A stretch of 64,000 nucleotides of DNA from contig NZ_CP121017.1 in assembly GCF_041468085.1 (NCBI RefSeq), positions 620,001-684,000 on the forward strand, in the 5' to 3' direction. Below the pieces are notes generated by a model. That model saw only the letters and a list, made by a program, of their open reading frames with translations. It did no database searches and was not told the DNA's origin. The position numbers were made by a program, and so were the translations under genes. Below are positions 45,518-51,084 of the stretch, piece after piece; position 1 is the stretch's first letter; every line of letters begins with the position of its first letter. The DNA is from Tistrella mobilis (GTDB lineage: Bacteria; Pseudomonadota; Alphaproteobacteria; Tistrellales; Tistrellaceae).

Positions 45518-46230
45518 CGATGGGGGCGGACGGTATCGGACTGGTGGTGTTCGATTGCGACGGCACGCTGGTCGACAGCGCCGGGCATATCGCCGACACC
45601 ATGGCGGATTGTTTCGTCGCCGCCGGTATCGCGGCCCCGACACCGGCCGAGGTGGCGCGGATCATCGGCCTGTCGCTGCCGATCGCGATCGGCCGGCTGC
45701 TGCCGCATCTGGACGATGTCGCCTGCCATGATCTGGCCGAGGGCTATCGCGACGCCTATCGCCGCCGGCTGGCGGCCGGGCTGATGGGCGACGAGCGGCT
45801 GTTCGACGGCGTGGAGGCGGCGCTGAAGCGGCTGGACGGGGCGGGCTATGTGCTTGGCATGGCGACCGGCAAGTCGATCCGCGGCGTGGAGCGCACGGTC
45901 GCCCGTTTCGGCTTCGAGCGGCTGTTCGTGACCATACAGACGGCCGATACCCATCCGAGCAAGCCGCATCCGGCGATGATGCTGGCGGCGATGGACGAAA
46001 CCGGGGCCGATCCGGCACGCAGCGTGCTGATCGGCGATACCAGCTACGACATGGAAATGGCGCGGGCGGCGGGTGCCAGAGCGATCGGGGTGGCCTGGGG
46101 CTGCCACGACCGCCGGGATCTGCTGGATGCGGGAGCCGATCTGGTGGTGACGGCGGCGGCCGAGCTGGATGCCGCGATTGCGACCGTGATCGGGGCGCCG
46201 CCGGCGCCGGAACGGAGGATCGGGGCATGA
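45514..46230 (+). CDS. HAD-family phosphatase (phosphoglycolate phosphatase-like)
   Basis: A 238-residue HAD hydrolase starting inside the pseudouridine synthase stop (ATGA). Motif I FDCDGTLVDS (about 13-22) holds the nucleophile and acid/base Asp, motif II is MATGKS, motif III is the Lys in HPSKPHP, and motif IV GDTSYDMEMARAAGA. The helical cap of subclass I sits between motifs I and II. The substrate is not predictable. The position between rluC-like and ATP12 genes is conserved in alphaproteobacteria. Confidence 0.9.
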   Translation: MTMGADGIGLVVFDCDGTLVDSAGHIADTMADCFVAAGIAAPTPAEVARIIGLSLPIAIGRLLPHLDDVACHDLAEGYRDAYRRRLAAGLMGDERLFDGVEAALKRLDGAGYVLGMATGKSIRGVERTVARFGFERLFVTIQTADTHPSKPHPAMMLAAMDETGADPARSVLIGDTSYDMEMARAAGARAIGVAWGCHDRRDLLDAGADLVVTAAAELDAAIATVIGAPPAPERRIGA

Positions 46231-46964
46231 GCGACGCCGTCACGCGCCGCAAGCGTTTCTACAAGGCGGTCGAGGCCGCACCATCGGCAGGGGAGGGGGC
46301 CGCTGGCGGCGGCTGGACCGTGCTGCTCGACGGTCGCGGCCTGCGCACGCCGGCCAAGGCGCCGCTGGCCGTGCCCTGCCGGGCGCTGGCGCAGCTGATC
46401 GCGGATGAATGGGCGGCACAGGAGACCCATATCGCGCCCGAGACCATGCCGGCGACGAAGCTCGCCAATGTGGTGATCGACCGGGTGGTGCCGCACCGGG
46501 CGCAGATCGCGGCGGAACTCGCGGGCTATATCGGCACGGATCTGGTGTGCTACCGCGCCGACAACCCCAAGGAACTGGCAGCCATTCAGGCCCGGCACTG
46601 GGATCCCCTGGTCGATTGGGCCCGCACCCGCTATGACATACATCTGGTGACCACCACCGGCCTTCTGGCCGTGGATCAGCCACCCGCGACGGTGGAACGG
46701 CTGAGCCGCGCGATCGAGGCCGCCGATCCCTGGCGGCTGGCGGTGCTCCACGGGGCCGTGACCACCGCCGGATCGGTGGTGATCGGCCTGGCGCTGGCGG
46801 AAGCATGGATCGATGCGTCGGCGGCATATGATGCCGCCTTCGCCGACGAACATTTCCAGATCACCCGCTGGGGGGAGGATTCCGAACAGGCCGAGCGTCT
46901 GGCGCTGCTGCGCCGGGATCTTGATGATCTGGCGAGGATCCGCGACGCACTCAACGCGGGGTAG
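46227..46964 (+). CDS. ATP12-family F1-ATPase assembly chaperone
   Basis: Homologue of mitochondrial Atp12p, which binds F1 alpha subunits during assembly; 245 residues. The N-terminal RRKRFYKAVEAAPS and WTVLLDGRGLRTPAKAPLAVP, then ADEWAAQETHIAPETMP, are the family hallmarks. The C-terminal HGAVTTAGSVVIGLALAEAWIDA also fits. ATP12 proteins are restricted to alphaproteobacteria and mitochondria, which supports the taxonomic call. Last gene of the coupled rarA string. Confidence 0.93.
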   Translation: MSDAVTRRKRFYKAVEAAPSAGEGAAGGGWTVLLDGRGLRTPAKAPLAVPCRALAQLIADEWAAQETHIAPETMPATKLANVVIDRVVPHRAQIAAELAGYIGTDLVCYRADNPKELAAIQARHWDPLVDWARTRYDIHLVTTTGLLAVDQPPATVERLSRAIEAADPWRLAVLHGAVTTAGSVVIGLALAEAWIDASAAYDAAFADEHFQITRWGEDSEQAERLALLRRDLDDLARIRDALNAG

Positions 46965-46995
46965 CGTCGGTATAATTCCGCAGCCGCAGATGGCC

Positions 46996-47096
46996 GTTGC
47001 GCAAAGTTGCGCAACCCTGCGTGCGATTTTGCACACCTTTCGCATATGCGGCAAGAATTTGCCAAAGCCTTGCCGCAAAAGCCCTGTTCACGGCAA
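46996..47096. promoter_or_regulatory. Dense TTGC/GCAA operator-like cluster upstream of pccB
   Basis: Two palindromes TTGCGCAA (46997-47004 and 47007-47014) stand 10 bp apart and together form a larger near-palindrome (46996-47015). Downstream come TTTTGCAC (47027-47034), the palindrome CGCATATGCG (47041-47050), TTTGCCAAA (47058-47066) and TTGCCGCAA (47070-47078). In Rhodobacter sphaeroides the ScfR-family regulator PccR controls pccB through TTTGCAAA-like repeats. The location and half-sites here suggest a related regulator, as an inference. Confidence 0.6.
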
Positions 47097-47239
47097 AGGG
47101 TGTGGCGCGGCCCGGTTCGTCATGCTATCAGCACAGGCGAACAAGGAAACGCCGTGTAGGGCGTTTTGCGTGCCGCATCCGGTCCGGGGGGGCCGTCGGC
47201 GGACGGTGCCCTACCATTCGAGGATGAAGAAGACCGGAG

Positions 47240-48772
<1,533 letters not shown>

Positions 48773-48782
48773 CCGGGCAGCC

Positions 48783-49079
48783 GTGAGCGGGCCGGAGCAG
48801 GAGACGGATCTGGTGAAGGCGGCGCATGCACGACGCGCGCGGCGCCTGACCGGCTTCTATCTCCACGGCTTCGGCTTCGCGGCGGCGAACGGCCTGATCG
48901 CCCTGCTGACGCAGCTGCTGAAGATCGACGACCCCGAAGGTCGGATCGGCTTCGCGCTCGCGATCTGGGCAGGTGCGGTGGTCCTCCACGGCCTCTGGGC
49001 CTACGGCGTGCTGTCGTGGGGCCGGGGGCGGAGGGGGACCGGCGCCGAACCGCCGCAACCGCCGTCATCCTCTTCCTGA
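48783..49079 (+). CDS. Small 2TM-type membrane protein inside the pcc operon
   Basis: A 98-residue protein, GTG start at 48783, 10 bp after pccB and 22 bp before pccA. A cationic N-terminus (HARRARRLTGFYLH) leads into two hydrophobic segments (about 23-45 and 55-80), then a Gly/Arg and Pro/Ser-rich tail. It resembles the 2TM domain family. No function is known. A similar small gene in this position is, from memory, common in alphaproteobacterial pcc clusters, which suggests a link to the carboxylase. Coding is supported by the tight spacing and hydropathy, not by a recognised catalytic motif. Confidence 0.75.
   Translation: MSGPEQETDLVKAAHARRARRLTGFYLHGFGFAAANGLIALLTQLLKIDDPEGRIGFALAIWAGAVVLHGLWAYGVLSWGRGRRGTGAEPPQPPSSSS

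Positions 49080-49101: not shown

Positions 49102-51084
<1,983 letters not shown>

Follow-up and report, generated by a model that had tools for sequence, protein, structure and literature searches.

From sequence comparison, we conclude that the cluster of short palindromes upstream of pccB in Tistrella represents a real, constrained and genus-specific control region. We consider it likely that this region governs the pccB operon, with block A serving as an operator, block C as a second site, and a dedicated regulator that was probably neither MccR nor RamB. The cluster was located in a 64-kb stretch of DNA (the window) taken from a 6.3-Mb genome, and its main features are listed in Table 1.

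Table 1. Features of the pccB upstream region and its neighbouring genes, in window coordinates.
Feature	Position	Strand	Remarks
ATP12-family gene	46227..46964	+	PF07542; stop codon 32 bp before the paired palindromes
Block A	46986..47016	.	31 bp, invariant; holds both TTGCGCAA palindromes
Paired TTGCGCAA	46997-47004 and 47007-47014		Spacer AG (2 bp), period 10, centre to centre 10 bp
Element B, GTGC-N6-GCAC palindrome	47021..47034	.	Arms conserved, centre variable
Block C	47031..47099	.	69 bp, invariant; holds the next five features
Palindrome CGCATATGCG	47041-47050
Perfect inverted repeat GGCAA-N4-TTGCC	47050-47063
Palindrome TTTGCCAAA	47058-47066
Palindrome TTGCCGCAA	47070-47078
Further GGCAA	47092-47096
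Candidate -10 region CATGCTATCA	47121..47130	+	Inside an invariant 45-bp stretch; putative assignment
pccB, propionyl-CoA carboxylase beta subunit	47240..48772	+	PF01039; 510 aa; putative controlled gene
pccA, propionyl-CoA carboxylase alpha subunit	49102..51084	+	PF18140 (PCC_BT domain)

Composition and layout of the upstream region

The first-pass annotation had pointed to five TTGC and five GCAA tetramers within about 100 bp upstream of pccB and to two identical 8-bp palindromes one helical turn apart. Both observations were reproduced. The tetramers started at 46997, 47007, 47029, 47059 and 47070 (TTGC) and at 47001, 47011, 47051, 47075 and 47093 (GCAA), the two identical palindromes were copies of TTGCGCAA, and every element was found at the position originally given for it. 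The resulting 10 tetramers per 101 bp were the maximum of the 64-kb window, where the mean was 0.55 and the next best value elsewhere was 4, and none of 40 simulated 64-kb windows exceeded 6 per 101 bp. A single TTGCGCAA was expected 0.88 times per 64-kb window, and by our arithmetic the expectation for two copies at a fixed spacing was about 0.001 per genome. Both the density of the tetramers and the rarity of the cluster went far beyond chance.

The pcc control region probably contained two kinds of sites. The repeated word of block C was TTGCC, unlike that of block A, and TTGCC/GGCAA occurred four times (47050, 47059, 47070 and 47092) within 47050-47096, more than anywhere else in the 64-kb window. 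Since block A used the words TTGC/GCAA and block C the word TTGCC, the earlier suggestion that two regulators were involved was plausible.

Several other elements were located near these blocks. The GTGC-N6-GCAC layout of element B recurred in front of the methylmalonyl-CoA mutase operon, as the conserved GTGCATATTCGCAC (L141 9775-9788); its chance expectation was 2.4 per 64 kb, and the sharing is a lead only that could be due to chance. Separately, the 12-mer AAGGAAACGCCG (47143-47154) was common to the upstream regions of pccB and methylmalonyl-CoA mutase and was kept in all three Tistrella species. Co-regulation of both pathway steps, pccB and the mutase operon, was possible. No consensus -35 was found for the candidate -10 region, and a similar sequence, TGCTATC, was present in some of the Rhodospirillales pccB upstream regions. 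In the presumed pccB leader, the ribosome-site-like AAGGAAACGCC (47143-47166 region) was followed by an immediate start-stop, GTG TAG (GTG TAA in the congeners), that sat in a small hairpin AAACGCC/GGCGTTT. The PccB protein was approximately 77-85% identical to its relatives among the matches listed. An open reading frame of about 97 aa between pccB and pccA (48783-49076) had no Pfam match.

Conservation within Tistrella and rarity outside

Footprinting was based on three closely related Tistrella genomes (G000, G001 and G002), the order being represented by this one genus in the collection, and therefore single bases were not rankable. The first-pass annotation had made its reading depend on conservation of the palindromes in close relatives, which was borne out: blocks A and C did not show a single change across the three species. 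At the same time, 4 of the 13 variable intergenic positions (47017, 47018, 47028 and 47030) fell in the 14-bp joint between the two blocks. One of these changes abolished the TTGC at 47029, which read TCGC in both congeners; thus, the list of tetramers was valid for this genome while this member of it was not conserved. The intergenic sequence differed at 13 of 272 positions between G000 and G001, at 12 of 272 between G000 and G002, and at 2 of 272 between G001 and G002 (4.4-4.8% against G000 and 0.7% for the last pair). For the third codon positions of the ATP12 gene, the corresponding differences were 48, 46 and 21 of 245 (19-20% against G000 and 8.6% for G001 and G002). Given this divergence, the invariance of the blocks next to a variable joint indicated that the blocks were constrained. 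The conserved bases extended beyond the palindromes, which we counted against the operator reading.

Each of the three Tistrella genomes had exactly one copy of the arrangement TTGCGCAA-N2-TTGCGCAA, located upstream of pccB in every case; the arrangement occurred in 0 of 382 other alphaproteobacterial genomes. When one or two mismatches were tolerated, no additional site for the pair came up, and three mismatches gave scattered matches only. Among the three-mismatch 18-mers, compared by eye, only TTGCGCAAGATCGCGCCG was common to all three genomes besides the pccB site, and all of its three mismatches were in one half of the motif. No regulon emerged for the paired motif, that is, no further genomic site pointing to a protein. 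Pairs of TTGCGCAA with other spacings were observed at 20 places in 19 of 384 other alphaproteobacterial genomes, compared with about 12 for the reversed control. Their spacers were nearly all different, they lay mostly within reading frames, and no ScfR gene adjoined them among the loci read. In the literature, none of the titles listed for TTGCGCAA as a transcriptional regulator site concerned the pccB context.

Comparison with ScfR operators and candidate binders

The ScfR regulator PccR of Rhodobacter sphaeroides reportedly controls pccB via paired elements, and the first-pass annotation had proposed a similar control, with a related but distinct code, for the present region. The PccR-controlled promoters of Rhodobacterales and Azospirillum indeed belonged to the same gene and had paired upstream boxes that contained TTGC/GCAA. 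However, these boxes were of the TTTGCAAA type and an ScfR gene was located within 4 kb. In Azospirillum (L008, L010), this gene was adjacent to pccB and divergent from it, with TTTGCAAA-N4-TTCGCAAC in between, and in Rhodobacterales, TTTGCAAATTTGC(C/G)GA-like sites preceded pccB by about 80 bp, and several genomes had an ScfR gene no more than 4 kb away. In contrast, the intergenic region of Tistrella pccB, with its TTGCGCAA pair of period 10, had neither TTTGCAAA nor a TT(T/C)GC(A/G)AA box, no ScfR gene of this genome was near pccB, and the ScfR closest to Azospirillum PccR was MccR, encoded beside prpDCB. Thus, the proposed PccR/ScfR control was supported only in part: it fitted the relatives, neither its box nor its gene was found at Tistrella pccB, and the part of the proposal concerning a distinct code (TTGCGCAA pair, 2-bp spacer, no TTTGCAAA) was confirmed. 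Two neighbouring short palindromes, as in known ScfR operators (PMC3420887; PMC6765138), were present. As far as sequence can tell, the pccB region resembled ScfR operators in geometry and departed from PccR promoters in sequence and gene neighbourhood.

A homologue of ScfR had been anticipated in the genome, and three were found: MccR (beside prpDCB), RamB (beside icl/ms) and the divergent ScfR3, all encoded away from pccB. In a specific form of our main explanation, ScfR3 would bind the operator, having assumed the role of PccR with an altered palindrome code. Of the ScfR proteins, ScfR3 alone occurred in all three species and was thus the only one that accompanied the site everywhere. Binding to paired boxes is typical of ScfR proteins, and the recognition helix of ScfR3, ISAAYLNLIEHDRRPVA, departed from the near-identical helices of MccR and Azospirillum PccR (SPSYLNQLE(R/N)NQRPLT), making a changed site plausible. 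Its gene neighbours were an ABC transporter gene set and, as a further point in its favour, a symporter-type sensor kinase gene. On the other hand, the ScfR3 gene was far from pccB, its product was only 32-35% identical to the other ScfR proteins, and its upstream region had TTTTG-type repeats and no TTGCGCAA. Moreover, ScfR3 had Met at the acyl-CoA gate (Tyr in MccR, Ile in RamB), unlike the propionyl-CoA-sensing members, which have an aromatic residue: Phe155 of M. tuberculosis PrpR has been linked to propionyl-CoA activation, and PccR has Trp there (PMC6765138). Altogether, we regard ScfR3 as a rather unlikely binder. The repeats upstream of its own gene (L007 5480-5600), with the conserved sequence TTTTGTAAAT(A/C)TTTTGAGTC, were a candidate ScfR3 autoregulatory site unlike TTGCGCAA.

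Alternatively, the operator could be bound by MccR, which senses propionyl-CoA for the prp operon, in the manner of PccR in relatives. In addition to its Tyr at the gate, its recognition helix was nearly identical to the one in PccR of Azospirillum, where the divergent PccR gene lies next to TTTGCAAA-N4-TTCGCAA boxes, and its prp site, a tandem TTCGCAA of period 9, had the same CGCAA core as block A with its period of 10. Like the pccB site, the PrpR/MccR methylcitrate operators (M. tuberculosis prpDC and Tistrella prpDCB) comprise two short palindromes next to each other, spaced by about one turn. However, the M. tuberculosis site was TTTGCAAA-N1-TTTGCgAA with period 9, and the prp-mccR region of Tistrella had a tandem TTCGCAA(A/T)-N-TTCGCAAA of the same period, conserved in G001, which was an ordinary ScfR-like site and not TTGCGCAA. 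In such sites TTGC and GCAA overlap, whereas in TTGCGCAA they abut, and block A was devoid of the TT(T/C)GC(A/G)AA box.

The distribution of the proteins was also at odds with MccR. In G002, a PF09856 search found ScfR3 only, and yet the whole pccB region was conserved, its upstream blocks being unchanged although MccR and RamB were lacking. On G002 contig C35 (L236 698-757), the sequences flanking mccR on the left and the prp segment on the right lay about 60 bp apart, compared with about 11 kb (mccR-prpDCB) in G001. Since both flanks were on one contig, mccR was missing from the assembled stretch, and its absence was not due to an assembly gap. In G002, the right flank of the ramB site was preceded by a LacI-like gene (L222 9268-10290) instead of ramB. 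Therefore, MccR and RamB were unlikely to maintain block A across the genus. The 18-bp paired motif was too short for this argument (less than one neutral change expected per lineage), so it was based on the full 100 bp of both blocks, for which we estimated about 4 changes per lineage if they were unconstrained. The loss of MccR and RamB in G002 could be recent, which would soften the objection. Nevertheless, MccR was an improbable binder, and the protein at this site was most likely neither MccR nor RamB. Like the pccB site, the class 2 operator of the ScfR-family regulator RamB in Paracoccus denitrificans has paired boxes that precede an operon of an acyl-CoA pathway. It has two near-identical boxes with an 18-bp spacer, placed by oligonucleotides at TGACAA-type sequences (PMC10370305), whereas no such pair was seen at Tistrella pccB and RamB was missing in one species.

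It was very improbable that block A was no operator but formed an RNA hairpin where the ATP12 gene ends (a terminator or an mRNA 3' end): although its palindromes started 32 bp past the ATP12 stop codon and jointly formed a 9-bp inverted repeat, GTTGCGCAA-AG-TTGCGCAAC, there was no terminator-like site and no T-run after the repeat, least of all in the congeners, the folding of the region was not unusual (z = -0.8), and block C would be left unexplained. The combination of GC-rich hairpin and T-run that defines an intrinsic terminator was not found at block A. CRP/FNR-type palindromes have the form TTGCG-N4-CGCAA, and the spacing here was N8 rather than N4. The operator of the PHB-sensing PhaR/AniA was also palindromic with a GC core and connected with carbon metabolism, and a PhaR homologue was encoded in this genome; however, its consensus YGCRNYGCR (PMC12542648) was not in block A when compared by eye.

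Proposed control of pccB and its implications

In the explanation that we prefer, block A would be the operator of a dedicated regulator that binds as two dimers, or as a tetramer, on one face of the DNA. The palindromes were ten bases apart, so the pair would lie on one side of the helix, and each half of block A was itself palindromic, which suits two protein dimers and would be unneeded for an RNA hairpin. In line with this reading, a layout of two neighbouring 8-bp palindromes has been footprinted for M. tuberculosis PrpR (PMC3420887; PMC6765138). This regulator would have essentially one genomic target and may adjust pccB to propionyl-CoA or substrate supply. Next to the promoter, block C would provide a second binding region, used by this regulator or by a different protein. 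We infer the protein binding, the tetramer, the direction of control and the signal from this arrangement, and the binder would be either ScfR3 or a protein of another family.

It can tentatively be suggested, though we find it doubtful, that the regulator was replaced: PccR-type control of pccB would be missing in Tistrella and would have been taken over by ScfR3 or an unrelated protein, with the new palindrome code TTGCGCAA-N2-TTGCGCAA. If so, the regulator to which propionyl-CoA carboxylase answers would differ from that of other Alphaproteobacteria. A conserved metabolic operon had a control region that differed in one lineage: the relatives use the ScfR code and Tistrella does not, and one species without obvious ScfR candidates still keeps the site. 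Knowing which protein binds would reveal how the metabolism of propionate was re-wired and would test how much drift the ScfR palindrome code allows.
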